Below are positions 7,471-20,885 of a stretch of 64,000 nt of DNA, one piece after another. How positions within the stretch are numbered: position 1 is the stretch's first letter; each line of letters opens with the position of its first letter. This DNA comes from an uncultured Pelagibacteraceae bacterium (GTDB taxonomy: Bacteria > Pseudomonadota > Alphaproteobacteria > Pelagibacterales > Pelagibacteraceae). The notes beneath the pieces were generated by a model. That model saw nothing but the letters and a program-made list of their open reading frames with translations, had not been told where the DNA came from and made no database searches. The stretch is taken from assembly GCA_902604795.1 (NCBI GenBank), contig CACKZV010000006.1, positions 1 through 64,000 of the forward strand. The letters run 5' to 3'. Position numbers and translations under genes: made by a program.

Positions 7471-9149
7471 CTTTTCTTAAAATAAGTAATTTGAGTGTCG
7501 ACTATAAAATGAGAAAAGAAACAGTAAATGCTGCAAAAAACATTAATATAGAAATTAAAAAAGGCGAAATTGTTGGATTAGTTGGGGAGTCTGGTTCAGG
7601 AAAAAGTACTGTAGCTAATGCAATTGTAAATTTAATTGATGAACCTGGTAAAGTTTCGAGTGGATCAATATTAATGGGAGAAAAAAATATTAGCGAAAAT
7701 CCAGAAACAATTGTTCAGTATCGAGGAAAAAAAATTGGATTAATATTTCAAGATCCTCAAACCTCTTTAAATCCTATTTTAACAATTGGTGAACAGCTTA
7801 TAGAAACAATACAGACTCACATAAATTTAAGTTCAGAGGATGCAAAAAATAAAGCAATTAATCTATTAAAAGAGGTAGGGATCAAGGATGCCGAAAAAAG
7901 GTTTTATAATTACCCTCACCAATTTTCTGGTGGGATGAGACAAAGAGTTGTTATTTCTCTTGCTTTATGTTGTGAGCCTGAATTATTAATTGCAGATGAA
8001 CCAACAACAGCACTAGACGTTTCTATTCAGTCTCAAATTCTTGAATTAATAAAAAGATTAACAAATGAGAGAAACTTAGCTGTAATACTAATTACCCACG
8101 ATATGGGGGTTATAGCTGAAACTACAGATAGAGTAGCTGTAATGAAAAATGGAGACTTAGTCGAAATAGGTTTAACCAAACAGATATTAGTTAAGCCCAA
8201 GGAAAAATACACAAAAAGTTTAGTTAGCTCTGTACCACCAACTAATAAAAAAATATCTAGATTTACAATAATTGAAAAAGAGAATGTTAATAATCAAAAT
8301 AATAACATTAAAATATTAAACAGATGGTCTAAAAAGATAATTATTGATCAAAATTTAATAGAAATAAAAAATTTGAGCAAATCTTTTGATGATAGTTTTT
8401 TCACAGAAAATACAAAGAATTCTGTAATGGCTGTAGATGATGTCTCACTAAATATAAAAGAAGGACAATCTTTTGGTTTAGTTGGTGAGAGTGGAAGTGG
8501 TAAAACAACAATAGCAAAAATGGTTGTTAATTTGTTCAAACCTAGCTCTGGAGATATTTATTTTGACAGTGTTAATGTTACCAAAATTAAAAAAAACAAA
8601 GATCTACTTAAATTTAGAAAACAAATTCAAATGATCTTTCAGGATCCATTTTCCTCGTTAAATGGAAGACTAAAAGTAAAGGAAATTATTGCAGAACCAA
8701 TTAAACTTCATAATCCAGATATAAAATCTAGTGATTTAGATAGTTATATTCATGATTTATTAGAATCTGTTGAATTAACTCAACAGTCTGCAATCAGATA
8801 TCCCCATGAATTTTCAGGGGGACAAAGACAAAGAATATCAATAGCAAGAGCATTAGCTACACAACCAAGACTTCTTGTTTGTGACGAACCTACATCAGCA
8901 TTAGATGTAAGCATTCAAGCTCAAATATTAAACTTATTAAAAGATCTTCAAGAACAGTTAAATCTCACAATTTTATTTATAAGCCATGATTTACCGGTTG
9001 TAAGACAAATGTGTGATAAAATAGCTGTTCTTAAAGACGGAAAATTATGTGAAGTGTCAGAAACTGAGGAGTTGTTTAAAAATCCTAAACATAATTATAC
9101 TAAGGAACTACTAAAATTAATGCCAAAAATTGAGTCAATTCATAACTAA
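7467..9149 (+). CDS. Fused two-domain ABC ATPase, DppD-DppF type
   Basis: One 560-residue chain carries both ATPases of an oligopeptide-type importer. Domain 1 has Walker A GESGSGKST near 40, the FSGGMRQRV signature near 151 and LLIADEPTT near 172. Domain 2 has GESGSGKTT near 339, FSGGQRQRIS near 448 and LLVCDEPTS near 468. A linker of about 60 residues joins them. The usual C-terminal oligopeptide extension that ends in a Cys-rich iron-sulfur motif is not apparent. It is cytosolic, bound to the two permeases. The fused form is known in YejF/GsiA-type systems, so glutathione or peptide uptake is conceivable. Confidence 0.92.
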   Translation: MTFLKISNLSVDYKMRKETVNAAKNINIEIKKGEIVGLVGESGSGKSTVANAIVNLIDEPGKVSSGSILMGEKNISENPETIVQYRGKKIGLIFQDPQTSLNPILTIGEQLIETIQTHINLSSEDAKNKAINLLKEVGIKDAEKRFYNYPHQFSGGMRQRVVISLALCCEPELLIADEPTTALDVSIQSQILELIKRLTNERNLAVILITHDMGVIAETTDRVAVMKNGDLVEIGLTKQILVKPKEKYTKSLVSSVPPTNKKISRFTIIEKENVNNQNNNIKILNRWSKKIIIDQNLIEIKNLSKSFDDSFFTENTKNSVMAVDDVSLNIKEGQSFGLVGESGSGKTTIAKMVVNLFKPSSGDIYFDSVNVTKIKKNKDLLKFRKQIQMIFQDPFSSLNGRLKVKEIIAEPIKLHNPDIKSSDLDSYIHDLLESVELTQQSAIRYPHEFSGGQRQRISIARALATQPRLLVCDEPTSALDVSIQAQILNLLKDLQEQLNLTILFISHDLPVVRQMCDKIAVLKDGKLCEVSETEELFKNPKHNYTKELLKLMPKIESIHN

Positions 9150-9161
9150 AAGGAGAAAACC

Positions 9162-9554
9162 ATGACAATATTTAAAAAAATTTCTGAAAATGAAGCTACT
9201 GGAAAAGTAAAAGAAATTTTTGAAGAAATAAAAGAAGCAAGACAAATAACAGAAATTCCGAATTTTTGGAAAACTATGGCTAATAGTCCTGAAACATTAG
9301 AAAGAACCTGGAGATCATTACAGCAAGTAATGGGAAAAGGTGAATTAGACCCTGCCGTAAAGGAGCTCATATATGTTGCAGTTTCAATTACTAACAATTG
9401 CGAATATTGTATTAAATCTCATTCTTTAGCCGCCAGAAAAAAAGGTGCCACAGATGGAATGATAAATGAAATGATTGCAATTGTTGGAATGGCAAATGAA
9501 ACAAATCGTTTAGTTGAAGGTTATCAAGTAGAAGTAGACGACTTTCTCAAATAA
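9162..9554 (+). CDS. AhpD/carboxymuconolactone decarboxylase-like protein
   Basis: A 130-residue all-helical protein of the AhpD-like superfamily. The redox motif NNCEYCIKSHSLAARKKG carries the CxxC pair near 81-84 and the following His, as in alkylhydroperoxidase-type members. AhpD-like proteins act as disulfide reductases or peroxidases in the cytosol, often as oligomers. It has a good ribosome site (aaggag) 12 bp after the ATPase stop and is followed 1 bp later by the DUF952 gene, so it probably shares the transporter transcript. A role in detoxifying peroxides or processing the imported solute is inference only. Confidence 0.83.
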   Translation: MTIFKKISENEATGKVKEIFEEIKEARQITEIPNFWKTMANSPETLERTWRSLQQVMGKGELDPAVKELIYVAVSITNNCEYCIKSHSLAARKKGATDGMINEMIAIVGMANETNRLVEGYQVEVDDFLK

Positions 9555-9555
9555 A

Positions 9556-9900
9556 ATGAATTTTGATTTTGTTTACAAGATATGTACAAAATCTGAGTGG
9601 AGTGAGGCAAAACAAAATAATGTTTTCAAAGGCACTGCATTAGATTTAAAAGATGGTTATATCCATTTTTCAGATAAAGATCAGGTCAAGCCAACACTAA
9701 ATAAGTTTTATATTAATCAAACTAATTTAATAATTCTTAAAGTTGATGCTCTTAAATTAAAAAATCTGGTTTGGGAGCAATCAACGGATGGCAACATCTT
9801 TCCACATTTATACTCAGACCTAGATTTAGATTTTGTAGTTAAAGAATTTATGATTGATTTAAAAGATGACGGTAAGCATGATCTGCCAGACGAATTTTAA
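9556..9900 (+). CDS. DUF952 family protein
   Basis: This 114-residue protein matches the DUF952 pattern: an N-terminal YKICTKSEW, then DLKDGYIHFS with the typical Ile-His-Phe-Ser, a hydrophobic strand LIILKVDALKL, and a late FPHLYSDLDLDFVV. The family is related to ADP-ribosyl-transferase-like folds but has no settled function. No signal peptide or membrane segment is present. It is the last gene of the rightward block and ends 3 bp before the convergent SMR gene. Confidence 0.78.
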   Translation: MNFDFVYKICTKSEWSEAKQNNVFKGTALDLKDGYIHFSDKDQVKPTLNKFYINQTNLIILKVDALKLKNLVWEQSTDGNIFPHLYSDLDLDFVVKEFMIDLKDDGKHDLPDEF

Positions 9901-9903
9901 TAT

Positions 9904-10239
9904 TTAATTTGATTTTCCAATTAAATTAACAATTAAAACTCCAGATATAATTAATATTAGACCTATAATTGTAAAAAAGTCGGGAATTTGGTTAAATTTA
10001 TAAATACCAACAACTGAAGTAGCTATTATACATAAGCCTGCAAATGAAGCATAAGTTACGCCAACAGGAATAGTTTTCATAACTAAAGACAGCGTATACA
10101 TGCATGCTACAATTGTTATTGCAGTAAAAACGCTTGGTAAAAAAATTGTAAAACCATTTGCTGCCTTTGCAAAACCATTTGATGCTGTACCAAGGGCAAC
10201 TGCAATAATTAGAATTATATAAGCAGTTAGATTACTCAT
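9904..10239 (-). CDS. SMR-family four-helix membrane protein without the usual Glu14
   Basis: The 111-residue protein aligns without gaps to EmrE-type small multidrug resistance proteins: four helices, FAKAANGFT, IPVGVTYASFAGL and a final VLIVNLIGKSN. The membrane glutamate at position 14, which binds protons and substrate in EmrE, is Val here (IIAVALGT). The aromatic corresponding to Trp63 is Phe. A proton-drug antiport role is therefore doubtful, although the fold is clear. It is the last gene of a leftward run of seven small genes. A paralog with the same loss lies at 38664-38999. Confidence 0.85.
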   Translation of the reverse strand: MSNLTAYIILIIAVALGTASNGFAKAANGFTIFLPSVFTAITIVACMYTLSLVMKTIPVGVTYASFAGLCIIATSVVGIYKFNQIPDFFTIIGLILIISGVLIVNLIGKSN

Positions 10240-10286
10240 AACTAAAGAATAATATATCCTTAATTAATATCTACAACTTTTCTAAT

Positions 10287-10784
10287 TTATTTAATTATTA
10301 TAGGACCGACCATTCCACTTTCGTAGTGACCAGGAATATTACATGCCATTTCTAAAGAAATATCTTTTGAAAACTTCCATATAATTTCTCCTGTTTTATT
10401 TGGCTCTAGCATTACACTATTTGCGTGTTTGTGGCCCAATGAATGATCTTTTTTTGACATTTCTTTCATTTTTTTATGATCAATTCGGTCGCCTAAAAGA
10501 ATATCATGTTCAATTAATCTTGCCATTTCGGGTTGGTGATCAATATGCATCTTTTTAGTGCCAATATTATATTCATGCACCAATTCACCTAAATTTTTAA
10601 CAATTATTTTTACTGTTTCACCTTTTTTAACTTGAATTGAACTTGGCTCATAATAATTGTCATACATCTTTACTTCTATTACTCTTGTAACTTCATTTGG
10701 ATCGCCCTTAGACCCAATCATCTTCATTGAAGCTGCATTAGAATTAAAGGCGATAAAAATAAATAAAAGTATAAGTTTTTTCAC
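10287..10784 (-). CDS. Periplasmic cupredoxin-like copper protein
   Basis: A 165-residue secreted protein: signal peptide to about residue 18 (FIAFNSNAAS), then a cupredoxin beta-barrel with IQVKKGETVKIIVKN. Candidate copper ligands are the His in ELVHEYN (near 67) and the C-terminal ACNIPGHYESGM (Cys near 147, His near 152, Met near 157). A His- and Met-rich insertion (HIDHQPEM, KKDHSLGHKHAN) lies between them and could bind extra copper, as in periplasmic copper-tolerance cupredoxins. Electron transfer or copper handling are the likely roles. Its start codon overlaps the end of the upstream NTF2-like gene by one base. Confidence 0.82.
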   Translation of the reverse strand: MKKLILLFIFIAFNSNAASMKMIGSKGDPNEVTRVIEVKMYDNYYEPSSIQVKKGETVKIIVKNLGELVHEYNIGTKKMHIDHQPEMARLIEHDILLGDRIDHKKMKEMSKKDHSLGHKHANSVMLEPNKTGEIIWKFSKDISLEMACNIPGHYESGMVGPIIIK

Positions 10785-11104
10785 TATTTAGGCATTGGTG
10801 TTGCGCCAGTCTCTAAACTCATGATTTTTCCATTATCATATTTGTAGACTGCCATTACTGCTTCAGTATTTCCATCATCAAATGTTACAAATGCGTGGTG
10901 TACACCAACTTCATCATTTTCATATACAACTCTAGTATCTCTTTGATTAATATCACCGCTCATCGCCCATTTGATCACTTCAGCTTTACCTAAAGTATTT
11001 CCTGATTTATGCATTGTGAATTTGAAATCATCATGCAAAAGTTCATTCATAGCTGCTTCATCTTTATTTTTTAATGCAGCACTGTATTTTTCTAAAATTG
11101 ACAT
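10784..11104 (-). CDS. NTF2/SnoaL-like small protein
   Basis: A 106-residue alpha+beta protein with the NTF2-like pattern: an N-terminal helix (ILEKYSAALKNKDEAAMNELLHDDFKFTMHKSG), then LGKAEVIKWAMSGD and three strands ending in YKYDNGKIMSLETG. NTF2-like folds bind small hydrophobic molecules or act as isomerases; no catalytic residues can be assigned. It has a ribosome site (aggag) and lies between the DUF1330 and cupredoxin genes in a single leftward run. Cytosolic. Confidence 0.72.
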   Translation of the reverse strand: MSILEKYSAALKNKDEAAMNELLHDDFKFTMHKSGNTLGKAEVIKWAMSGDINQRDTRVVYENDEVGVHHAFVTFDDGNTEAVMAVYKYDNGKIMSLETGATPMPK

Positions 11105-11138
11105 ATTATTCTCCTAATCTTCTATTAATTTATTATGT

Positions 11139-11426
11139 TTATATACCATCTACAATTATAGAATTTGACACAGCATTGTCGTGTCTTATTTGCCTAATTG
11201 GTTTATATTCCTCAGAATTATACCATTCCATTGCTTTTTCTCTTGATGGAAATTTAATCACAATATTTCTTTCATTTGGCCAATCACCTTCTATTATATT
11301 CATTTCTCCACCTCGAACTAAATATTCCCCACCAAATTTTTCAACAACAGATTTTACCTTCGAAACATATTCTTTATAATTTTCAGGATTGTTAACAGTT
11401 ATGTTTGCTAATAGATATGCGCTCAC
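11139..11426 (-). CDS. DUF1330 family protein (dimeric alpha/beta-barrel fold)
   Basis: The 95-residue protein shows the DUF1330 signature: AYLLANITVNNPENYKEYV at the N-terminus, GGEYLVRGGEMNIIEGDWPN in the middle, and IKFPSREKAMEWYNSEEYKPI near the end. DUF1330 proteins are ferredoxin-like dimeric alpha/beta barrels, related in fold to EthD and heme-degrading monooxygenases, with unknown chemistry. The start is GTG, well placed after aaggagg. It is one of three such small barrels in this operon. Confidence 0.83.
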   Translation of the reverse strand: MSAYLLANITVNNPENYKEYVSKVKSVVEKFGGEYLVRGGEMNIIEGDWPNERNIVIKFPSREKAMEWYNSEEYKPIRQIRHDNAVSNSIIVDGI

Positions 11427-11456
11427 TAAACCTCCTTTTTATAAGTAAATTTTAAT

Positions 11457-11780
11457 TTATTCTGCAGGTTTAATAACAGACTTTGAGGCATTTGCAGCAT
11501 TTTCAAAAGCTTTATTGTAGTCAATAACTTCGTGTACCATCAAATCATCCATAAGACCTGAATTTTTAAAAGCAATCTTCAATGCAAGTGCTTGTTCATA
11601 ATCTCCTTCTACACATGAGATAACATCAAATCTACCTCTTACCCATTCATAGCTGATCAATTTTAAACCAGCCGCCTCAGTAACTTTTTTAGTAGATGCA
11701 TATCTATCTGCAGAAGGATCATTTTGCATTCTTTTCATTAACTCTGCACTTATTTTACCAATCAAATAAAATCTTGCCAT
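11457..11780 (-). CDS. GYD-domain-like small protein
   Basis: About 107 residues starting with MARFYLIGKISAELM. The stretch VTEAAGLKLISYEWVRGRFDVISCVEGDYEQAL resembles GYD-domain proteins, where a GRYD-like motif lies in a ferredoxin-like dimeric barrel. I chose the ATG at 11780, one base after the upstream stop; a TTG at 11792 would overlap that gene. Function is unknown. The C-terminal 15 residues are Ala/Lys-rich and probably flexible. Confidence 0.7.
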   Translation of the reverse strand: MARFYLIGKISAELMKRMQNDPSADRYASTKKVTEAAGLKLISYEWVRGRFDVISCVEGDYEQALALKIAFKNSGLMDDLMVHEVIDYNKAFENAANASKSVIKPAE

Positions 11781-11781
11781 A

Positions 11782-12072
11782 TTACATTTCAACTTTTGTC
11801 AAATCCCAAGCAGTCATTTTCTCAACACACTCATCGTAGATTGGCTTTCCAACTGGATGTGTACCAGATACTAGTTCTTTCATTTTTTCCATATTATGAA
11901 CAAATACCTTAAACATTACCCCACTTTTATCTGGCTTTACCGCTCCTATAGTTTTTTCTGGATGAGCTGCTGATTTTCTTACACTCATACCCTCATCAGA
12001 TTGCATCCATCCCATAAATTTTTCAAGCTTTCCTTCTTTCAAATCTACGATCACTAAAACTTCTTTTTCCAT
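11782..12072 (-). CDS. Small uncharacterised protein, probable dimeric alpha/beta barrel
   Basis: I do not recognise this 96-residue protein by family. Its pattern, strand (EVLVIVDLKEG), helix (KLEKFMGWMQSDEGMSVRKSAAH), strand (TIGAVKPDKSGVMFKVFVHN), helix (MEKMKELVSGTHPVGKPIYDECVEKM), suggests a ferredoxin-like fold similar to its operon neighbours. It has no signal peptide. A clear ribosome site (ggag) precedes its ATG. It is the second gene of the leftward operon and abuts the GYD-like gene. Confidence 0.65.
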   Translation of the reverse strand: MEKEVLVIVDLKEGKLEKFMGWMQSDEGMSVRKSAAHPEKTIGAVKPDKSGVMFKVFVHNMEKMKELVSGTHPVGKPIYDECVEKMTAWDLTKVEM

Positions 12073-12093
12073 ATTGTTTCTCCTTTCTTTAAT

Positions 12094-12477
12094 TTATTTT
12101 TTCATTGCATTGAACATGCTAAGTGTATCATCAAAGGTCATCATGACTTTAGTTTTTCCTTCATCACTAGATTCAAAATAATGACCAAACATAGTATCCA
12201 TATTGTCAGCAGTTGCATGAACTCTAACAAAAACTTTGTTACCTTCACTAATCATATCTAAAACTTTTAAATGAAAATTTGGCCATATCGCCGGAATTTT
12301 TGACATAGCAGCCATCATAGCTTGTTTACCTTTATGTACTCCTGATAACGGATGAACACCCTCTTTACCTGGAAATGTCCATACAATATTATCATCAATC
12401 ATTTCATTAAAAAAAGTTTCCATATCGCCTTTACCAAATAGCTCATATGCTTTTCTTGTTTGCTCTTTTACGTCCAT
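12094..12477 (-). CDS. SnoaL-like (NTF2-fold) protein
   Basis: A 127-residue SnoaL-like protein: N-terminal helix (TRKAYELFGKGDMETFFNEMID), the DNIVWTFPGKEG turn, SGVHKGKQAMMAAM, then KVLDMISEGNKVFVRVHATAD and a last strand MMTFDDTLSMF. This is the common layout of ketosteroid-isomerase/limonene-epoxide-hydrolase relatives. It is the first gene of the leftward small-protein operon, with a good ribosome site (aaagg) just upstream. The substrate is unknown. Confidence 0.76.
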   Translation of the reverse strand: MDVKEQTRKAYELFGKGDMETFFNEMIDDNIVWTFPGKEGVHPLSGVHKGKQAMMAAMSKIPAIWPNFHLKVLDMISEGNKVFVRVHATADNMDTMFGHYFESSDEGKTKVMMTFDDTLSMFNAMKK

Positions 12478-12561
12478 AGTTTCTCCTTTATAAGATCATT
12501 ATATTAGAATTTATTATAAGAGAGAAATGTAATGAATTTATTACAGCGCTGCTATGCGTGA

Positions 12562-13563
12562 TTATATCCAGTGAGGATAGGGAAGACCTTTTTCTTGTAA
12601 AAAAGATTTATTAAACATCTTTGAGTTGTATTTATCAGATTTATCACAGAGAATTGTCACAATTGTTTTACCTGGACCTAAAAGTTTACCCAATCTTATT
12701 GCTCCAGCAATGTTTACTCCACAACTTGTACCTAAACTTAAACCTTCCTTTTCAATTAAATCAAATAAAACAGGCAAAGACTCATGATCACTTATTGAAA
12801 ATGCTCCATCAATTTTTGCTTTTGCAAAATTTGCAGTAACTCTACTAGATCCAATACCTTCAGTTATTGAACCACCTTCACTCTTTAATTCACCATTTTC
12901 AATGTAACTATAAAGAGACGAACCTGTTGGATCAGATAAATATATTTTAATATCTTTATTCTTTTCTTTTAAAAAACTACTTACTCCTGCAATTGTGCCA
13001 CCAGTACCTGATGAACATACAAAACCATCAATTTTGCCGTCAGTTTGTTCCCATATTTCTGGCCCTGTTGTTTCATAATGACCTTTTGAATTTGCAGTAT
13101 TATCAAATTGATTAGCCCAAACTACACCGTGATTGTTACTACTCTTCAACTCATCAGCCAATCTTCCTGCATATTTAACAAAGTTATTTTCATCTTTATA
13201 AGGTTTTGGTGGAACCAACCTTAAATCAGCTCCAATATTTCTTAATAAATCTTTTTTTTCTTGTGTTTGATTATCGTTCATCACGATAATTGTTTTATAA
13301 CCAATAGAATTTCCTAAAAGACATAACCCAATCCCAGTATTACCAGCAGTTCCCTCAACAATTGTTCCACCTTTTGAAATTAGTTTTTTTTCTTCAGCAT
13401 CTCTTATTAAAGCTAGAGCCGCTCTATCTTTTACAGAGCCACCTGGATTAAGGTACTCTGCTTTTCCATAAATATTACAACCTGTAATTTCTGATGCAGC
13501 TTTTAATTTAAATAATGGAGTGTTTCCTATTGCTTCGACAAAATTATTTTGTAAAGTTTTCAT
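12562..13563 (-). CDS. cysK: Cysteine synthase (O-acetylserine sulfhydrylase)
   Basis: The 333-residue enzyme belongs to fold-type II PLP enzymes. NPGGSVKDR near 41-49 holds the Schiff-base Lys, [10 protein letters not shown] is the substrate loop (a TSGNTG variant), and [15 protein letters not shown] binds PLP phosphate. It makes cysteine from O-acetylserine and sulfide in the cytosol. Its ATG overlaps the cysE stop in an ATGA arrangement, so the two steps of cysteine synthesis are translationally coupled. The TAGNTG variant and C-terminal length resemble CBS-like relatives, so another beta-replacement reaction is possible. Confidence 0.9.
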
Positions 13564-14141
13564 ACATCAAGCTTTGTATCACCCCCTGGTGCAACACCAT
13601 AGGGTTTAAATTCTTCAGACGCGGTTCCTACATTTTTTGCAGGAATACCAACCATTACTGCATTTTCTGGAACATCTTTTGTAACAACAGCGTTTGCTCC
13701 AATTTTTGCATTTTTACCAACTACAACTGGTCCAAGTATTTGTGCACCTGATCCAACAACAACATTTTCTTTTAATGTTGGATGTCTCTTAATATTTCTT
13801 TGATTGTCTGAATTTATACTTGGAGCAATTCCGCCTAATGTTGCCATGTGATAGATAGTAACGTTATCTCCAATATCAGATGTTTCTCCAATTACTACTC
13901 CCATACCATGATCTATAAAAAGATTTTTTCCAATTTTAGCATTTGGATGGATTTCAATACCTGTTAAAAATCTTGAGAACTGAGAAATTATTCTTGCAAC
14001 AAGATGAAATTTTGCAATTGAAAAAAAATTTGCAATTCTATGAAAAAATACTGCTTTAACACCAGGATAAGTTAGTATTAAACTTAACTTTGATCTTGCA
14101 GCAGGATCTCTTTTAATTATCGACTCTAAAAAATCATTCAT
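13560..14141 (-). CDS. cysE: Serine O-acetyltransferase
   Basis: This 193-residue left-handed beta-helix acetyltransferase shows hexapeptide repeats from about residue 65 on and the active-site motif [18 protein letters not shown], with the catalytic His in DHGMG. It transfers acetyl from acetyl-CoA to serine, giving the substrate of the downstream cysteine synthase. It is the short type lacking the large N-terminal helical domain of E. coli CysE. It heads the cysE-cysK pair. Just upstream lies the small Cys-rich gene. Confidence 0.92.
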
Positions 14142-14171
14142 GTTTATTTAAGATTAGTTATTAAAATTTAA

Positions 14172-14282
14172 CTACTTGTTACAACAGCAGTTTTCTGATG
14201 ATGGTTTGCAATCACAGTTTTTACAAACGCATCTTTCACAAGAACAGTTTTTACATTTACAGTGTGTATTATTGCATGCCAT
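14172..14282 (-). CDS. 36-residue Cys-rich protein, metallothionein-like
   Basis: The minus strand encodes MACNNTHCKCKNCSCERC followed by 18 more residues and a TAG stop. Twelve of 36 residues are Cys. Cys at 8, 10, 13, 15, 18, 20, 23 and 25 follow a strict CxCxx repeat of period five, then a CCC cluster lies at 32-34. Lys is common and there is no hydrophobic core or signal peptide. This is what a metal-thiolate cluster protein looks like. It does not resemble the cyanobacterial SmtA pattern. The gene lies between cysE (30 bp) and the persulfide dioxygenase (54 bp), all leftward. Binding of zinc, cadmium or copper is inferred from composition. No strong ribosome site is seen. Confidence 0.72.
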   Translation of the reverse strand: MACNNTHCKCKNCSCERCVCKNCDCKPSSENCCCNK

Positions 14283-14336
14283 GATAGTTATATAATTGTA
14301 TATTTTTTAAAAACAATACTAATAATAACCCTGATT

Positions 14337-15029
14337 TTAGAGTTCTTTAAGCGTTAATCCCTTAAGATTTGCAGGTACTGCAATATCCATCATTTTTGGA
14401 TTAGCAAGATTAAGATTATCCATTATTTCAGCATATTCCTCTTTTGAGCTAACTTGTAATCGAGGATTATTACTTTTCTCACTACCAATTGTCGAAAACT
14501 TTTTACCATTATAATCATGCGCAGGATAAACAAGCGTTTCTTCAGGAAGTTTTAATAGTTTACCAAATAATGAGTCATAAGCTTCATGGGCGCTACCATT
14601 TTGAAAATCTGTTCTACCTGTCCCATTAATTAAAAGAGTATCTCCTGTAAAAATCCTATCTTTCATCAAATAACTATATGAACAATCTGTATGACCAGGA
14701 GTATAAATTGCTTTTAGCTCAATATTCTCGACATTTATATTTTCATCATCTTTTAATTTTATGTCAATAACCTCAGATTTAGAGTTTTCACCCATTATAC
14801 GAACACAATTAGTTCTTTGATTAAGCTCATTTAAACCAGTTACATGATCTGCATGAATATGAGTATCAATTACTTTTACAAGTTTTAATTCTAAACTTTC
14901 TAAAACTTTTATGTATTCATCAGTATGTTCAATTACTGGATCTATGATTAATGCCTCACGTCCTTTACCACTAGAAATAATATAAGTGTAAGTCGAGGAT
15001 TTAGTATCAAATAGTTGTTCAAAAATCAT
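14337..15029 (-). CDS. Persulfide dioxygenase, ETHE1-like (metallo-beta-lactamase fold)
   Basis: The 230-residue protein has the MBL-fold iron site of ETHE1-type enzymes: THIHADHVTG near 56-65, YTPGHTDCSYSY near 110, FTGDTLLINGTGRTDFQNG near 130-148, and YPAHDYNG near 171. The GTGRTDFQ segment is typical of persulfide dioxygenases rather than glyoxalase II. The enzyme oxidises glutathione persulfide to sulfite. It is followed in the same direction by the Cys-rich gene and preceded by the sulfide:quinone reductase gene, which makes its substrate. Confidence 0.88.
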   Translation of the reverse strand: MIFEQLFDTKSSTYTYIISSGKGREALIIDPVIEHTDEYIKVLESLELKLVKVIDTHIHADHVTGLNELNQRTNCVRIMGENSKSEVIDIKLKDDENINVENIELKAIYTPGHTDCSYSYLMKDRIFTGDTLLINGTGRTDFQNGSAHEAYDSLFGKLLKLPEETLVYPAHDYNGKKFSTIGSEKSNNPRLQVSSKEEYAEIMDNLNLANPKMMDIAVPANLKGLTLKEL

Positions 15030-15064
15030 AATTATAAAATATGTAAAATTTTATAAAATTGATA

Positions 15065-16306
15065 CTAATTTTCAATAGCTTTATGGTTAGGCTTACTCCA
15101 TTCTTTTCCTTTAAACATCACATTCCATTGCAACCAAGGAAATAGCTTTGATTTCATTTGCCAATATAAAGAGCTAGGTTTTGTTGGGTCAAAAGGTAAA
15201 CTTGGAGTTACTTTTCCACCATAACAAAATTCTGCTAACATAACTTTGCCGTAAGCAACTGTTAATGGACAAGCACCGTATCCATCATAAAGTCTATATG
15301 CTTCAGATGATTTATTGATATCTTTAATAATATTATGAGCAACTATTGGAGCTTGTTTTCTAACTGCTGCTCCTGTTTTTGCATTAGGTGCATTCATTAC
15401 ATCACCCAAACTATAAATATTTTCATATTTAGTATGTCTTAATGTTCCTTCTTTATGATCTACATCAACCCATCCACCAGCATCAGCTAATGGACTATTC
15501 CTAATAAAGTCTGGAGAAGTTTGAGGTGGTGTTACATGAATAAAATCAAATTTCTTTGTAACTTCTTTAGAATTACCATCTTTATCAGATTGTTTGAAGA
15601 CAGCCTCTTTGGCCTCTCCATTTACTGAAATTAAATTATGTTGGAAGCTTCTTTTAATACCATATGAGTCGCATATTTCATTTAGTGGACCTTGAAAATG
15701 AGGTACACCAAAAATTACTGGCTTAGCGCATAAAAATTCTAAATTACTATCTTTAAGAGCACCTTTTTTCTTTAAGTGATCAGCAGCTAAGTAAGCTATT
15801 TTTTGAGGTGCTCCTGCACACTTAATTGGCATTGGAGGTTCAGTAAATAATAAATTTCCTCCCTGCAAATTCTTTAAACATTCCCAAGTATAAACAGCCA
15901 TATCTGAACTATAATTAGTACAAACATTATTTTTTCCTAAAGTTTCTTTTAACCCAGCCACTCCATCAAAGTTTATTTTTAAACCAGGGCAAACTACTAA
16001 ATAGTCATATGAATATTCACCACCTGAAGTTTTCACTGAATTAGATTCAGGGGAAAAACTTTCAGCATATTCTTTAATCCAATTAACGTAACTAGGCATT
16101 ACAGATGACATTGGCTTAATAGTACTGTTTACATCATAAGCACCTGCACCCACTAAAGTCCATGCAGCTTGATATAAAGATTTTTCAGAAGGTTCTATGA
16201 TTGATATTGATAAGTCAGACTTTAAACTTTTTAGTCTTGTGGCAACTGATATACCAGCGCAACCACCACCGATAATCAAAATATTTGAGTGATTAGAATT
16301 ATTCAT
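15065..16306 (-). CDS. sqr: Sulfide:quinone oxidoreductase
   Basis: A 413-residue FAD disulfide reductase. The dinucleotide motif IIGGGCAGIS is near residues 9-18. Redox-Cys candidates are PIKCAGAPQK and YGACPLTVAYGK, both at conserved places for SQR of the human/mitochondrial-like type. The C-terminal part (LYWQMKSKLFPWLQWNVM) is amphipathic and fits peripheral membrane attachment. It oxidises sulfide, passes electrons to ubiquinone and loads the sulfur onto a thiol. I use the ATG at 16306; the open frame extends to a GTG at 16345. It heads the leftward sulfur operon and is divergent from the peroxiredoxin. Confidence 0.87.
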   Translation of the reverse strand: MNNSNHSNILIIGGGCAGISVATRLKSLKSDLSISIIEPSEKSLYQAAWTLVGAGAYDVNSTIKPMSSVMPSYVNWIKEYAESFSPESNSVKTSGGEYSYDYLVVCPGLKINFDGVAGLKETLGKNNVCTNYSSDMAVYTWECLKNLQGGNLLFTEPPMPIKCAGAPQKIAYLAADHLKKKGALKDSNLEFLCAKPVIFGVPHFQGPLNEICDSYGIKRSFQHNLISVNGEAKEAVFKQSDKDGNSKEVTKKFDFIHVTPPQTSPDFIRNSPLADAGGWVDVDHKEGTLRHTKYENIYSLGDVMNAPNAKTGAAVRKQAPIVAHNIIKDINKSSEAYRLYDGYGACPLTVAYGKVMLAEFCYGGKVTPSLPFDPTKPSSLYWQMKSKLFPWLQWNVMFKGKEWSKPNHKAIEN

Positions 16307-16379
16307 ATTAAAAAATCTAACACTTATAATTTGCTTAAGATACACGTCTTATAAGTTGTTTTTTCAAACTTAAATATCG

Positions 16380-16407
16380 TTGATAAACCTAATCAATAAT
16401 TTATAAT
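16380..16407 (+). promoter_or_regulatory. Probable sigma-70 promoter of the 1-Cys peroxiredoxin gene
   Basis: A ttgata hexamer at 16380-16385 and a perfect tataat at 16402-16407 are separated by 16 bases. They end 30 bases before the peroxiredoxin ATG, which has an aaggag ribosome site. In this AT-rich DNA such matches arise by chance, but spacing and position are right. Confidence 0.5.
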
Positions 16408-16437
16408 AGTTCTAATTAATTAAAAGGAGAGTGAAGA

Positions 16438-17097
16438 ATGTTAAAAATAAACAGTATGTGTCCTGATTTTCAATGCAAAACTACAGAGGGAGATATCTCT
16501 TTTCATGAGTGGCTTGGAGATAGTTGGGGCGTATTATTTTCTCACCCAAAAGATTTTACACCAGTTTGTACTACAGAATTAGGTTCATTGGGACAAATGA
16601 AAGCTGAGTTTGATGCAAGAAATGTAAAAGTAATCGGACTAAGTGTAGATGGAGTTGAGGATCACAAAAAATGGTTAGAAGATATTAAAGATGTATCTGG
16701 AACGATGCCTGATTATCCTATTATCGCTGATGAAGATTTAAAAGTTGCAAAACTTTTCAATATGTTAGAAGCTGATGCAGGAACAACCTCAATGGGAAGA
16801 ACAGCAGTTGATAACGAAACTGTTAGGACTATTTTTGTTGTAAGACCAGATAAAAGAATTGGTCTTTATTTAACTTACCCAATGGCTACAGGTAGAAATT
16901 TCCATGAAATTTTAAGAGCAATAGACTCAATGCAACTTACTGCAAAACATAGGGTTGCTACTCCAGCTAATTGGAAAAAAGGTGAAGACGTAGTTATTCT
17001 TCCTGCTGTAAAAGATGATGAGGCTAAAAAAATATATCCAGATGGATGGGAAACAGTTAAGCCTTACTTAAGAAAAGTTCCAGATCCTACAAAGTAA
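16438..17097 (+). CDS. 1-Cys peroxiredoxin (Prx6 type)
   Basis: The 219-residue protein has the peroxidatic motif HPKDFTPVCTTELG with Cys near 45, and the long C-terminal domain (YLTYPMATGRNFHEILRAIDSMQL, then ATPANWKKGEDVVILP) that marks Prx6/AhpE-like 1-Cys enzymes. It reduces hydrogen peroxide and organic or lipid peroxides in the cytosol. It stands alone with its own promoter, divergent from sqr, and ends at a 15-bp stem-loop. Linkage to the sulfide genes suggests defence against thiol-linked oxidative stress. Confidence 0.92.
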   Translation: MLKINSMCPDFQCKTTEGDISFHEWLGDSWGVLFSHPKDFTPVCTTELGSLGQMKAEFDARNVKVIGLSVDGVEDHKKWLEDIKDVSGTMPDYPIIADEDLKVAKLFNMLEADAGTTSMGRTAVDNETVRTIFVVRPDKRIGLYLTYPMATGRNFHEILRAIDSMQLTAKHRVATPANWKKGEDVVILPAVKDDEAKKIYPDGWETVKPYLRKVPDPTK

Positions 17098-17119
17098 AAA
17101 GGATATCGGATTAATTTAT

Positions 17120-17153
17120 AATCTCGGTTCTAATAAATATTAGAACTGAGATT
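17120..17153. terminator. Bidirectional terminator-like stem-loop
   Basis: A 15-bp stem (aatctcggttctaat / attagaactgagatt, one G-U pair) with a 4-base loop lies in the 59-bp gap between the convergent peroxiredoxin and racemase genes. It is placed to end both transcripts, although flanking T-runs are short. Confidence 0.75.
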
Positions 17154-17156
17154 AAA

Positions 17157-17855
17157 TTAAATTCTTTTATATTTTTTCATTGAAATATTTGCCACAAGCA
17201 AGTTAGGATCAATAAAAATTTTAGATTGTTTTATTTTCTTAAAAGATTTATATGCAAATATTGCAATTGGTAACTCAGTACATCCTAGAATTATTTTTTT
17301 ACATTTAATTTTCATTAAGTAATTTACAGCAGGTCTAATAGCTTTTTCAGCTTCTTTAATTTTTCCCATCTTAACAAGTTTTATTGATTTGTTCACAGAA
17401 CTTTTTTGTAAATCATTACTAGGGCTCACCAAATTAAAACTTTTAGCAAAGTATTTGCTATACACCTTTGTCTCTAAAGTTGCTTCAGTAGATAAAAGAC
17501 CTATTTTAGTATTTTTTTTACAAGTTTTAAGTGTTTCTTTATAAACTTCTTGTGGCATACTTAAAATTGGTATCTTAATCTTTTTTCTCAAATCATCATA
17601 CCAATAGTGTGCTGTGTTACATGGCATAACTATAAATTTACAATTATTTTTTTGCAGCATTTTACAGCCTTCAACAAGAGCATTTAAGACGTTGTGATAT
17701 TTTTTTAAATTTTCTGGTCTCTTTGGTGTGTTAGTTTTGTTGTAGAGAACAAACATTGGATATTGCTGATCAAGTTTGCCAGTATTAATCTTTGCAAGTT
17801 TATTGCAAAAATCTAAACCAGCTTGTGTCCCCATTCCACCAAGAATACCAATCAT
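17157..17855 (-). CDS. Aspartate/glutamate racemase family protein
   Basis: A 232-residue two-Cys, cofactor-independent racemase. The N-terminus IGILGGMGTQAG is the family nucleotide-like loop. Catalytic Cys candidates are in MPCNTAHYW (near 80) and LGCTELP (near 190). The family interconverts L- and D-aspartate or other amino acids in the cytosol. The GGMG...MPCNTAHYW form is that of YgeA/RacX-like broad-specificity racemases rather than MurI. It is a single gene, convergent with the peroxiredoxin and divergent from the hydrolase. Confidence 0.87.
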   Translation of the reverse strand: MIGILGGMGTQAGLDFCNKLAKINTGKLDQQYPMFVLYNKTNTPKRPENLKKYHNVLNALVEGCKMLQKNNCKFIVMPCNTAHYWYDDLRKKIKIPILSMPQEVYKETLKTCKKNTKIGLLSTEATLETKVYSKYFAKSFNLVSPSNDLQKSSVNKSIKLVKMGKIKEAEKAIRPAVNYLMKIKCKKIILGCTELPIAIFAYKSFKKIKQSKIFIDPNLLVANISMKKYKRI

Positions 17856-17915
17856 AAATCTACTTTGAATTTTGTTTTAAAAAATACAATATACAACTAT
17901 ATTTTATAAACAATT

Positions 17916-18668
17916 ATGCAAGATATTTATATTGATGATATTGGTTCAGGATATCCACTGGTTCTAGTTCATGGATATCTAGGATCGTCTGAAATGTGGA
18001 AACTCCAAAAAGATTATCTATATAAAAAATTTAGAATTATAGCACCTGCTTTGCCAGGTTTTGGTGAAAGCTTTAATGCACAATCTTTAAATAGTATAAG
18101 TTTAATGGCTAAATTTATTATCGAACAAATTGATTTAAAAAATATAGATAAGTTTAATTTAATGGGTCACTCGATGGGTGGAATGATAGTTCAAGAAATA
18201 GCAAAACTATCTGGAGATAGAATTAATAAATTGATTTGTTTCGCTACTGGACCTATTGGAGACATTCCAGGTAGATTTGAACCTATAAATACGTCGATAA
18301 AAAAGCTGGGTGAGGAAGGAGTTAAGGAACAAGTAAAAAGAATACCACCAAAGTGGTTTGTTGAAGGAAATCAAGCCAAAAATTATTATTTATGTGAAAA
18401 TGCTGTTAAAAACATTTCTGAAGAAACAGCACGTAACGCCCTAATAGCTATGAGAGATTGGAATGGCTTAGAAAATTTAAAAAAAATAAAAAACAAAACC
18501 TTGATAATTTGGGGAGATAAAGACAAATCTTATAATTTTGAACAAGTCTCAACACTAAAAATTAATATTCCTGATAGTGATTTAAAAATATTTAAAAATT
18601 GTTGTCACAATGTACATCTTGAACAGCCTCAGAAATTTAATCAAGTTGTTGAGGATTTTCTTATTTAA
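17916..18668 (+). CDS. Alpha/beta hydrolase
   Basis: The 250-residue protein has the alpha/beta-hydrolase core: oxyanion segment VHGYLGSSEMW near 19-29, nucleophile elbow GHSMGG (Ser near 88), acidic residue in IIWGDKDKS (near 206) and the catalytic His in CCHNVHLEQP (near 233). There is no signal peptide. The substrate (ester, lactone or thioester) is not evident. It is a single gene 60 bp from the divergent racemase. Its stop lies 4 bp before a candidate operator in front of proX. Confidence 0.85.
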   Translation: MQDIYIDDIGSGYPLVLVHGYLGSSEMWKLQKDYLYKKFRIIAPALPGFGESFNAQSLNSISLMAKFIIEQIDLKNIDKFNLMGHSMGGMIVQEIAKLSGDRINKLICFATGPIGDIPGRFEPINTSIKKLGEEGVKEQVKRIPPKWFVEGNQAKNYYLCENAVKNISEETARNALIAMRDWNGLENLKKIKNKTLIIWGDKDKSYNFEQVSTLKINIPDSDLKIFKNCCHNVHLEQPQKFNQVVEDFLI

Positions 18669-18671
18669 ATC

Positions 18672-18684
18672 GCCCATTTTAGGC
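18672..18684. promoter_or_regulatory. Candidate operator upstream of proX
   Basis: The sequence gcccattttaggc matches the AACCCATTTTRGAC-like motif also seen in front of the winged-helix regulator gene, dctP and tauA/tpa. It lies about 40 bp upstream of the -35 box of the predicted proX promoter, a usual place for an activator. The family of the binding factor is inferred, not shown. Confidence 0.4.
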
Positions 18685-18725
18685 TTTTGCATAGCAGATT
18701 TTACTATTTAGCTTATTAGAAAAGT

Positions 18726-18754
18726 TGACTCTAAATTTAAAACAAAGTTAGATT
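18726..18754 (+). promoter_or_regulatory. Probable sigma-70 promoter of proX
   Basis: A ttgact hexamer at 18726-18731 and ttagat at 18749-18754 are separated by 17 bases and lie 34 bases before the proX start codon. Confidence 0.45.
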
Positions 18755-18787
18755 TAATTATATAAAATAACAATAATGGGGAAAAAT

Positions 18788-19750
18788 ATGAATATAATCA
18801 AAAAAATTCTTGTGGCTGGAGTAATTTCATTATTTGTACCAGCCTCAAGTTTTGCTGAAAAAGTAAAAATTGGTGATCCTGGTTGGACGGGTGCAACTGC
18901 AATTGCAAATTTACTTGCTGCTGTTGTCATTGATAAAATGGGTGGTGAAGCCGAGTTAGTTCCAGGAAATAATACTGCAATCTATGGAGCGATTGATAGA
19001 AGCAAAGGTGAAATCGAAGTTCACCCTGATATTTGGCTACCAAATCAAGAAGCCTATACAAAAGATTTAGTACCAAAAGGAACATTAAAATTAAGCAAAA
19101 ATCCTTATGAAGGAAATCAAGGCTATTGTGTTTCTCAACAATTTGCAAAAAAAATGAATATTACTGCAATAGAAGATTTGGGGAGACCAGAAGTTGTTAA
19201 AGCAATGGATAGCGATGGAAATGGAAAAGGTGAGTTTTGGATTGGCGCAGATGGATGGGCTTCTGCAAATGTAAACCAAGTAAAACTTAGAGACTATAAA
19301 CTTTACGATGCTGGTATAGAGCCAATTAGAGCTGCTGAAGCAGTTAAAAATGCTAGAGTTCTAGACTCGATCAAAAAGGGTGAAGGCTATGCATTTTATT
19401 GTTACAAACCTCACGCTATTTGGGGAATGGCTGATGTAGTTATGTTGGAAGAACCAAAGTATGATCCAGCTAAATATAAAATGATTCAACCAAAAGCAGA
19501 TGCAGATTGGTACCAGAAATCTTATGTAGCTTCAAAGGATGCTTTGAAACAAATTCAAATCGGATGGGGAACTTCTTTAGAAAGTAAATCACCAGCGATT
19601 GTTGAATTTTTTAAAAATTTCCAGATCACAGCAGATGATGTTTCTTGGATGGCATATGAAGTATCAGTTCAAAAAAGAGACCCAGGAGAAGTTGCAAGAG
19701 ACTGGATGGCTAAAAACAAATCAACAGTTGATGGTTGGTTAGGTCTTTAA
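18788..19750 (+). CDS. proX: Glycine betaine/proline-type ABC substrate-binding protein
   Basis: About 320 residues with a signal peptide (MNIIKKILVAGVISLF, cleavage after SSFA) and an OpuAC/ProX domain. Family signs include IGDPGWTGATAIANLLAAV near the N-terminus, EVHPDIWLPNQ, GYAFYCYKPHAIWGM with aromatic residues for a quaternary-ammonium ligand, and a late VSWMAYEVSVQKRDPGEVARDWM. It binds glycine betaine or a similar osmolyte in the periplasm. The ATG at 18788 follows a gggga ribosome site; an ATG at 18776 lies before that site. A 12-bp stem-loop follows the stop. Confidence 0.92.
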   Translation: MNIIKKILVAGVISLFVPASSFAEKVKIGDPGWTGATAIANLLAAVVIDKMGGEAELVPGNNTAIYGAIDRSKGEIEVHPDIWLPNQEAYTKDLVPKGTLKLSKNPYEGNQGYCVSQQFAKKMNITAIEDLGRPEVVKAMDSDGNGKGEFWIGADGWASANVNQVKLRDYKLYDAGIEPIRAAEAVKNARVLDSIKKGEGYAFYCYKPHAIWGMADVVMLEEPKYDPAKYKMIQPKADADWYQKSYVASKDALKQIQIGWGTSLESKSPAIVEFFKNFQITADDVSWMAYEVSVQKRDPGEVARDWMAKNKSTVDGWLGL

Positions 19751-19772
19751 TTTAGTCAATTTAAATTTAATT

Positions 19773-19799
19773 TACCTGGCGACTTATAGTTGCCAGGTA
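19773..19799 (+). terminator. Stem-loop between proX and proV
   Basis: Arms tacctggcgact and agttgccaggta form a 12-bp stem with one G-U pair and a 3-base loop, 22 bp after the proX stop. A modest T-rich stretch follows. It may stop part of the transcripts or protect the proX 3' end, raising binding protein over ATPase and permease. Confidence 0.7.
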
Positions 19800-19832
19800 T
19801 CATTTTCAATAATTTTAAGCTAAAATCCTTTT

Positions 19833-20885
19833 ATGGAAGCTGCTATACAGATCCAAAATGTTTGGAAAATATTTGGAAATATATCCAATGATGCATTGGA
19901 CGCAATACAAAATAAAAAAATTTCAAAACAAGAAGCTTTAGAAAAATATAACTCAGTAATTGGTGTTTCCGATGTTTCATTTGATGTTAATAAAGGTGAA
20001 ATCTTTTGTGTTATGGGATTATCTGGAAGCGGTAAGTCAACACTTGTGAGGCATATTAATAGATTATTAGAGCCAACATCTGGAAAAATTTTAATAAACA
20101 ATCAGGATGTAATGCAATTTAATAAAGAAAATTTACAAGAACTTAGAAATAAAAAAATTGGTATGGTTTTTCAAAATTTTGCATTGATGCCCCACAGATC
20201 TGTTTTAGATAATATTGCAATGCCTTTAGAAATAAGAGGAGTAAGTAAAAATGATAGGTTAGATGCAGCAAATAACATCTTAAATATTGTTGAATTACAA
20301 GGGTGGGGTAATAAATATGCTCATGAATTATCTGGTGGAATGCAACAAAGAGTAGGGTTGGCCAGAGCATTAGCTGCCGATCCTGAATTTTTACTCATGG
20401 ATGAGCCTTTTAGTGCACTTGATCCGCTTATAAGACGCCAACTTCAAACAGAGTTTATTAAACTTTCAAAACAAATGAAAAAGACAACTGTATTTATAAC
20501 TCATGATCTTGATGAAGCTGTAAGAGTTGGGCATAGAATAGCAATAATGCGAGATGGAAGAGTGGTTCAAATCGGAACTCCTGAAGAAATAGTTGTAAAT
20601 CCTTCTGATGAATATGTTGCAGATTTTGTAAAAGGAATTTCAAGATTAAAAGTTGTTCAGGCTAAAACTATTATGCAATCTTTAGAGCAATATAAAAAAA
20701 ACTTTGGGGAAAATTTTAGTAACAATGAAAAAGTAAATGAAAACGATATATTAAGCAAACTTATTGAAACTTCTGTTTCTAAAGATAAACCAATTGTAGT
20801 TGTAAATGACCATAATACGGAAGTTGGAATTATTACTCAATCAGACCTATTAAAGGCAGTTGTTGAAGGAAATGAGAATGAGTAA
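19833..20885 (+). CDS. proV: Glycine betaine ABC transporter ATPase with C-terminal CBS-like region
   Basis: A 350-residue ProV/OpuAA-type ATPase. The N-terminus has the extra helical segment typical of ProV (IQNKKISKQEALEKY). Walker A is GLSGSGKST near 63, the signature is LSGGMQQRV near 166, and Walker B is FLLMDEPFSALDP. Residues after about 270 are shorter than the tandem CBS pair of E. coli ProV; one CBS-like unit is readable at the end (VVVNDHNTEVGIITQSDLLKAV). CBS units sense ionic strength in related transporters. The stop overlaps the proW start. Confidence 0.92.
   Translation: MEAAIQIQNVWKIFGNISNDALDAIQNKKISKQEALEKYNSVIGVSDVSFDVNKGEIFCVMGLSGSGKSTLVRHINRLLEPTSGKILINNQDVMQFNKENLQELRNKKIGMVFQNFALMPHRSVLDNIAMPLEIRGVSKNDRLDAANNILNIVELQGWGNKYAHELSGGMQQRVGLARALAADPEFLLMDEPFSALDPLIRRQLQTEFIKLSKQMKKTTVFITHDLDEAVRVGHRIAIMRDGRVVQIGTPEEIVVNPSDEYVADFVKGISRLKVVQAKTIMQSLEQYKKNFGENFSNNEKVNENDILSKLIETSVSKDKPIVVVNDHNTEVGIITQSDLLKAVVEGNENE

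Follow-up and report, generated by a model that had tools for sequence, protein, structure and literature searches.

SAR11 bacteria are among the most abundant bacteria of the ocean and are thought to depend on reduced sulfur. In a 64 000-nt stretch of an uncultured Pelagibacteraceae genome (contig CACKZV010000006.1, positions 1 to 64 000; called here the window), a very short reading frame crowded with Cys codons is located between cysE and a gene resembling that of a persulfide dioxygenase (PDO). Does this frame encode a working protein and, if so, is the product related to metals, to sulfide oxidation or to the control of cysteine synthesis? A preliminary description of the locus had proposed a metallothionein-like protein belonging to a sulfide-oxidation operon; we have followed up both parts of this proposal.

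A small Cys-rich gene

The minus-strand frame 14282–14172 translates into MACNNTHCKCKNCSCERCVCKNCDCKPSSENCCCNK, a metallothionein-like product of 36 amino acids with 12 Cys, one His and no Phe, Trp or Tyr. Eight Cys, at residues 8, 10, 13, 15, 18, 20, 23 and 25, follow the CxCxx repeat exactly; the length, the Cys count and the repeat are as described previously. The CCC described as terminal is indeed present, but it is sub-terminal, since Asn-Lys come after it.

The frame begins 54 nt downstream of the gene of an MBL-fold hydrolase (14337–15029; Lactamase_B model above cut-off) and its stop is 30 nt upstream of the start of the serine O-acetyltransferase gene cysE (13560–14141; EpsC and CysE models above cut-off). 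All three lie on the minus strand, in agreement with the position given earlier. The PDO function of the hydrolase is putative because its matches to the GloB and Blh models stayed below cut-off. Further genes on this strand are cysK for cysteine synthase A (12562–13563; NF007989 above cut-off) and a gene for an SQR-like flavoprotein (15065–16345; SQR type III model, below its cut-off).

Dinucleotide shuffling of the window, repeated 100 times, gave at most 7 Cys in any ORF of 25–80 aa; the runner-up in the real window, among the five frames shown, was a 65-aa frame with 9 Cys. The small ORF was the sole match in the window's own genome. The possibility of a chance ORF was rejected on account of this control, the relatives in the genus and the selection on Cys (see below). 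The small Cys-rich ORF is a real gene.

Conservation and selection

We observed that 11 Cys, Met1, Asn5 and Asn12 were invariant over 31 chosen representatives, with Pro27 nearly so, and that length changes fell between Cys20 and Cys23. Six near-copies and a pair of short forms among the 38 representatives did not enter this set; one of these near-copies is without Cys33 and one has Lys12, and in a wider set slight variation was seen at Asn5 and Asn12. All four copies from outside the genus (g6, g7 and g17) have the same 11 Cys positions. Cys15, the residue that completes the perfect repeat, occurs mainly in the clade of 36-aa proteins.

For 44 distinct 36-aa genes, picked by position, dN/dS was 0.028 at Cys columns and 0.31 at other columns. 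Among 36 distinct 39-aa genes the Cys columns held 35 nonsynonymous versus 2664 synonymous pairwise differences, and dN/dS at non-Cys columns was 0.42. TGT and TGC exchange freely while Cys stays. A gene set collected with a Cys-based pattern had given values of 0.024, 0.31 and 0.43; as such a pattern would bias the set towards conserved Cys at positions 3 and 8, the figures above are those of a repeat with genes picked by position, in which the result held. Cys was replaced in single 36-aa genes at seven positions, possibly owing to errors of single-cell amplification, and in a single 39-aa gene at one. Purifying selection on the Cys codons is extreme, and the other columns are constrained too. 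With frame and Cys positions conserved, the idea of a small metallothionein-like protein gains support from sequence.

Distribution and forms

Among 300 genomes of the genus, 60 were matched with E up to 0.1; 59 matches were strong (E 8.8e-8 or better), the remaining one (G191) being short and partial with E 0.04. Of the genus genomes that were at least 90% complete, 8 of 44 carried the small ORF. A scan of species genomes produced 74 loci, in records whose titles all name Pelagibacteraceae or Pelagibacterales. In wider draws the ORF was seen in 15 of 247 genomes of the family (4 of 14 genera) and in 17 of 197 genomes of the order, all from the window's genus; the class draw had a single carrier among 289 genomes, the window's own, and showed no further spread. 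The three matches among 349 genomes of the phylum were the own genome and two partial ones (E 0.02 and 0.08) with one internal stop each, judged to be due to chance.

The ORF was absent from at least seven one-contig genomes of the genus (G011, G121, G337, G355, G364, G373 and G381; family draw, among the genomes listed), and none of the 15 carriers in the family draw was a one-contig genome. One could speculate that this absence is the reason why the gene was overlooked. On the side of mobile elements, 101 stretches in viral contigs fit a pattern and none of them encodes a relative of the small ORF; the phage records searched held no relative either. A plasmid origin was rejected, the matches being six stretches of Streptomyces polyketide synthase genes at E 0.1, judged to be chance.

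A small Cys ORF was found by position in 161 of 191 loci (repeats of one locus were counted each time). Most of these ORFs encode 36, 39, 38 or 37 aa; longer forms are single, e.g. 43 aa in L192 and 44 aa in L130. Two loci, L107 (19 aa) and L126 (21 aa), have ORFs shortened in frame, with the middle Cys lost and with the promoter, the CCC and the hairpin described below kept; L107 may be decaying or misread, since there is a stop in its PDO frame as well.

On a tree of 106 loci having both PDO and cysE, the presence of the ORF required 4 changes as compared with 13.4 when labels were shuffled. This pattern agrees with a long-resident gene that has been lost several times, the tree being blind to the difference between gain and loss.

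Neighbouring genes

At an identity of ≥76%, a PDO-like gene was present in 101 of the 300 genus genomes, including all 59 strong carriers. We fetched the loci of 28 of the other 42 PDO genomes, those without a strong ORF match. Three have variant ORFs (G047, G189 and G024); in 18 cysE lies 25–53 nt behind PDO and the Cys ORF is absent; in seven there is neither, with cysE located elsewhere in the genome for three of the seven. Conservation of the locus, a check suggested along with the preliminary description, has come out both ways: where the frame is present, it and its Cys are kept with the neighbours, but 18 of the 28 fetched loci keep the flanks without the frame. The small ORF is dispensable, given its absence from the loci with cysE directly behind PDO.

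The PDO-like neighbour bears on one proposal for function, namely that the product carries sulfane sulfur, as persulfide, for the SQR-like and PDO-like enzymes. The ORF adjoins the PDO-like gene in the genus, and every strong carrier genome has this gene. In many small-ORF loci the SQR-like gene is not adjacent to PDO or was not found, and a peroxiredoxin gene rather than SQR is within 400 nt of PDO in 58 of 93 distinct PDO-linked carrier loci. Among eight genomes tested for SQR, four of them carriers from outside the genus, it was found in one, the carrier G352; it was not found in carriers G470, G543 and G422 (assemblies 87, 80 and 62% complete). Two copies from g7 speak against the carrier as well: L191 stands before cysE, with its upstream gene on the other strand and with neither PDO nor SQR matched in 8 kb, and L193 is directly before an msrB-like gene (named from sequence), with no PDO match in the 8 kb fetched. 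Since the ORF also has a predicted promoter of its own, and since it is proximity that speaks for the holding of persulfide, we consider the sulfane-sulfur role, also part of the preliminary description, highly improbable. Functional membership in a sulfide-oxidation operon fared poorly in view of the predicted promoter, of SQR being found in one of the four carriers outside the genus and of the g7 copies for which the 8 kb held no PDO match.

cysE is the steadier neighbour. It adjoins the small ORF in 92 of the 93 distinct PDO-linked carrier loci, a count obtained with fetching biased to carriers. In the assemblies of G242 and G543 (66 and 80% complete) the small ORF has intact Cys, and cysE was neither next door nor found elsewhere.

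Some other features of the region were seen in passing. In the window (15065–17097) and in L002, L004 and L006 a peroxiredoxin gene is divergent to the PDO-like gene, with the SQR-like gene between them in some of the loci only; the SQR-like gene has been gained or lost beside a stable PDO-cysE-cysK block. A cluster of genes for small proteins, one of them SnoaL-like, follows cysK in the window (10784–12477); in L148 relatives of this cluster come directly after the small ORF, and cysE and cysK are absent there.

Predicted promoter and leaderless start

Ahead of the small ORF we observed a predicted -10 box TATATA (14289–14294, minus strand), which ends six bases before the ATG, and a predicted -35 box TTGTTT (14311–14316, minus strand), with a 16-nt spacer between the two. 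The consensus ahead of the ATG is TTGnnn-N16/17-TATAnn-N6-ATG. A strict form of this pattern was present in 73 of 86 distinct 60-nt upstream sequences and a looser form in 78 of 86, counts that are not independent as the sequences are related. Among 2264 ATGs of the window used as a control, 3 had the strict and 17 the loose pattern, and none of the 70 window ORFs of at least 100 aa (some of them non-gene frames) fit it. The motif also stands ahead of copies from g6, g7 and g17 (L176, L178, L193 and L181), where its distance to the ATG is 6 or 7 nt.

A generic promoter scan of the region produced sites no more numerous than in shuffles, and the promoter of the small ORF was not listed; the scan missed the TATATA box because it asks for T at position 6. 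From the geometry of the promoter, transcription would begin at the ATG or close to it, and the mRNA of the small ORF would probably be leaderless.

In 11 loci without the ORF (L115, L116, L118, L122, L125, L127, L128, L129, L131, L140 and L142) there is a TATATA-like box at a distance of a few bases before the cysE ATG. In L114, L117, L119 and L123, where the gap between PDO and cysE is ∼25 nt, no TATA-like box precedes cysE. It looks as if the promoter were part of the cysE unit, with the small ORF located between promoter and cysE.

A hairpin over the last Cys codons

Folding of the 3′-end of the window ORF predicted a hairpin with a stem of 7 bp (AACTGCT / AGTAGTT, -6.4 kcal/mol; 14170–14192, minus strand) that covers Asn31, the codons of CCC and the stop. 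For analysis of covariation we extracted 52 3′-ends of the CCCxx type and used the 35 distinct ends that lie outside the 36-aa clade, to which the other 17 belong. In these, 85.4% of the cells were paired. Cells with both sides changed numbered 20 as compared with 7.2 (SD 1.8) in shuffles, none of the 500 shuffles being as high and slid versions of the stem reaching at most 13. The pair of columns 8 and 24 was GC in 19 ends, CG in 10, AU in 2 and unpaired in 4, and on a tree each of the two columns required 6 changes. Relatedness of sequences inflates covariation counts, and two other measures were within the shuffle range (73 of 500 for pairs changed on both sides; 268 of 500 for pair types). 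In the 36-aa clade the covarying pair is A-G in nearly all sequences and another register of the stem forms.

Single-sequence folding produced a stem of at least 4 bp in 68 of 69 distinct ends. The mean fold energy of 89 ends was -8.3 kcal/mol versus -4.8 kcal/mol for synonymous recodings, with 9% of the recodings being as stable on average. For a longer stretch of the window copy the stability was no greater than that of shuffles (z +0.7), and over 15 loci the longer stretches had z from -3.1 to +1.1; the hairpin signal is therefore local.

A terminator-like T run at the stem is present in some lineages (L151, L180 and L148), whereas others are without it. In L148 a 10-bp stem is followed by TTT, and the next gene is not cysE. 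Five T within the 8 bases past the predicted stem were found in none of the 69 ends, T runs being often drawn into the stem. In one lineage group, L008 and its relatives, an A+T-rich near-palindrome, which may be an operator or a second hairpin, lies between the small-ORF stop and cysE. We infer that the hairpin acts either as a terminator of the mini-gene or as an attenuator.

If it is a plain terminator, the gene could be an autonomous metallothionein cassette for which cysE is just a landing place. Promoter and hairpin do travel with the ORF beside other neighbours, as in L148 and, before the msrB-like gene, in L193. A mere landing place is hard to reconcile with cysE being next in nearly all of the PDO-linked carrier loci, carrier-biased as the fetching was, or with the TATA box seen before cysE in several ORF-less loci; we regard a cassette of this kind as quite improbable.

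If it is an attenuator, the peptide could be idle and serve as a cysteine-responsive leader: when charged Cys-tRNA is scarce, the ribosome would stall at CCC, the hairpin would stay open and transcription or translation of cysE-cysK would proceed. This model, which along with the promoter and the hairpin goes beyond the preliminary description, has several points in its favour. The ORF has a run of Cys codons near its stop, ahead of a cysteine gene, with RNA structure over these codons; the start is predicted to be leaderless, cysE and cysK are next, the hairpin is built from Cys codons and stop with compensatory changes and with stability in excess of that of synonymous recodings, and short ORFs with Cys codons ahead of cysteine genes have been published. 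The truncated ORFs of L107 and L126 keep CCC and hairpin together with the promoter, as a pure leader peptide would, and this counts against a reading centred on the protein. Stalling, though, needs none of the eight Cys upstream of CCC, whose fixed CxC spacing is kept across four genera. Also against the leader are the constraint on non-Cys residues, the intact copies in G242 and G543, for which no cysE was found, and the occurrence of a T-rich run beside the stem in some lineages only. A leader whose peptide has no task of its own appears unlikely to us.

Proposed function

That the eight N-terminal Cys keep their spacing, and that the remaining residues are constrained as well, speaks for a working protein. 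A Cys pattern of this sort is familiar from thiolate metal clusters, and proteins of the metallothionein class are small, rich in Cys in CxC and CC motifs and poor in aromatics; the product of the small ORF has all of these features. The copies with intact Cys in the incomplete assemblies G242 and G543 also favour the protein. We propose that the gene encodes a small thiolate metal-binding protein of metallothionein type which heads the cysE-cysK unit, with a rough probability of 0.58 for this reading as a whole, and that it most likely represents a new metallothionein-type family of Pelagibacteraceae.

According to this proposal, the 11–12 Cys thiolates of the translated product would surround a cluster of Zn, Cu(I) or Cd as soft metal ions, which the protein would buffer or park. 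The small ORF would come first in one transcription unit with cysE and cysK, so that a metal buffer costly in Cys would be made together with the enzymes that make Cys. The hairpin at the end of the ORF would either terminate the mini-gene or attenuate; in the latter case ribosomes slowing on the Cys codons would let more transcript into cysE.

The predicted leaderless start, CCC and hairpin match known cysteine attenuators, and the ORF may double as a cysE leader, or be a leader only. Dual use, in which the ORF encodes a metallothionein while its terminal Cys codons and stop hairpin form a cysteine sensor that sets expression of cysE-cysK, is a possibility that we put forward tentatively. Were it true, the cell would tune cysteine synthesis by the ease of making its metal buffer; a hairpin that senses cysteine would join metal buffering to cysteine supply.

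In a Pfam-based survey, Candidatus Pelagibacter ubique had few or no members of most of the detoxification families that were screened, and families for metal detoxification were under-represented in the open ocean (PMC4161860). A dedicated 36-codon metallothionein in a streamlined SAR11 genome, unmatched by the profile models used here, would, if confirmed, alter models of trace-metal handling.

Comparison with known systems

Searches in family collections did not place the small protein. No Pfam family matched the window protein at E up to 1, or three of its relatives at E up to 10, and no model of NCBIfam, PHROGs or PADLOC matched it; no Rfam family was found in window positions 9000–20000. 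Solved structures revealed no similarity to a metallothionein, the only match being a mucin with E 0.11. A description of the small gene was not found in the accessible portions of the open-licence literature searched. What appears new is a predicted metallothionein-type protein in a putatively leaderless, hairpin-ended mini-gene heading cysE-cysK; metallothioneins as a kind are known.

The metallothioneins of Neurospora type in fungi are short and CxC-rich, and in description, though only in description, they resemble the SAR11 protein. The SmtA-type metallothioneins of cyanobacteria and Pseudomonas are likewise small, Cys-rich and bacterial, with a thiolate cluster being predicted for the protein here. 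A number of cyanobacterial metallothionein genes, smtA included, are reported to have a divergent gene for the SmtB repressor, and the Pseudomonas metallothionein to use both Cys and His (PMC7387436). In contrast, the SAR11 protein has 36–39 aa and one His, and there is no repressor gene beside it, the neighbours being the PDO-like gene and cysE on the same strand. That it is not of SmtA type, as claimed earlier, agrees with the Pfam result, since the prokaryotic metallothionein model was among those without a match. The same source mentions MymT of Mycobacterium tuberculosis, a metallothionein with a role in copper handling (PMC7387436); the likeness, by description only, is that of a bacterial metallothionein.

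Among cysteine leaders, a leaderless short ORF with consecutive Cys codons controls downstream genes through an attenuator in M. smegmatis (Canestrari 2020, as cited in PMC9031893). The SAR11 ORF differs from the mycobacterial polycysteine ORFs in having eight further Cys in CxC spacing across genera and in occurring without cysE. Short ORFs with Cys codons precede cys operons in actinobacteria, and a conserved hairpin is reported to be absent from the leaders of Mycobacterium cys operons (PMC1262725); a hairpin is therefore not common to all published cases. A further case is the uORFC-8-2 motif before cysS in Rhodobacterales, described as a short ORF with Cys codons in a stem and a terminator, the two Cys codons being usually at positions 14–15 and a U run being present in all cases (PMC8632094). 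Both are short alphaproteobacterial ORFs with Cys codons in a stem, but the SAR11 ORF has 11–12 Cys, precedes cysE rather than cysS and has a T run in part of its lineages only.
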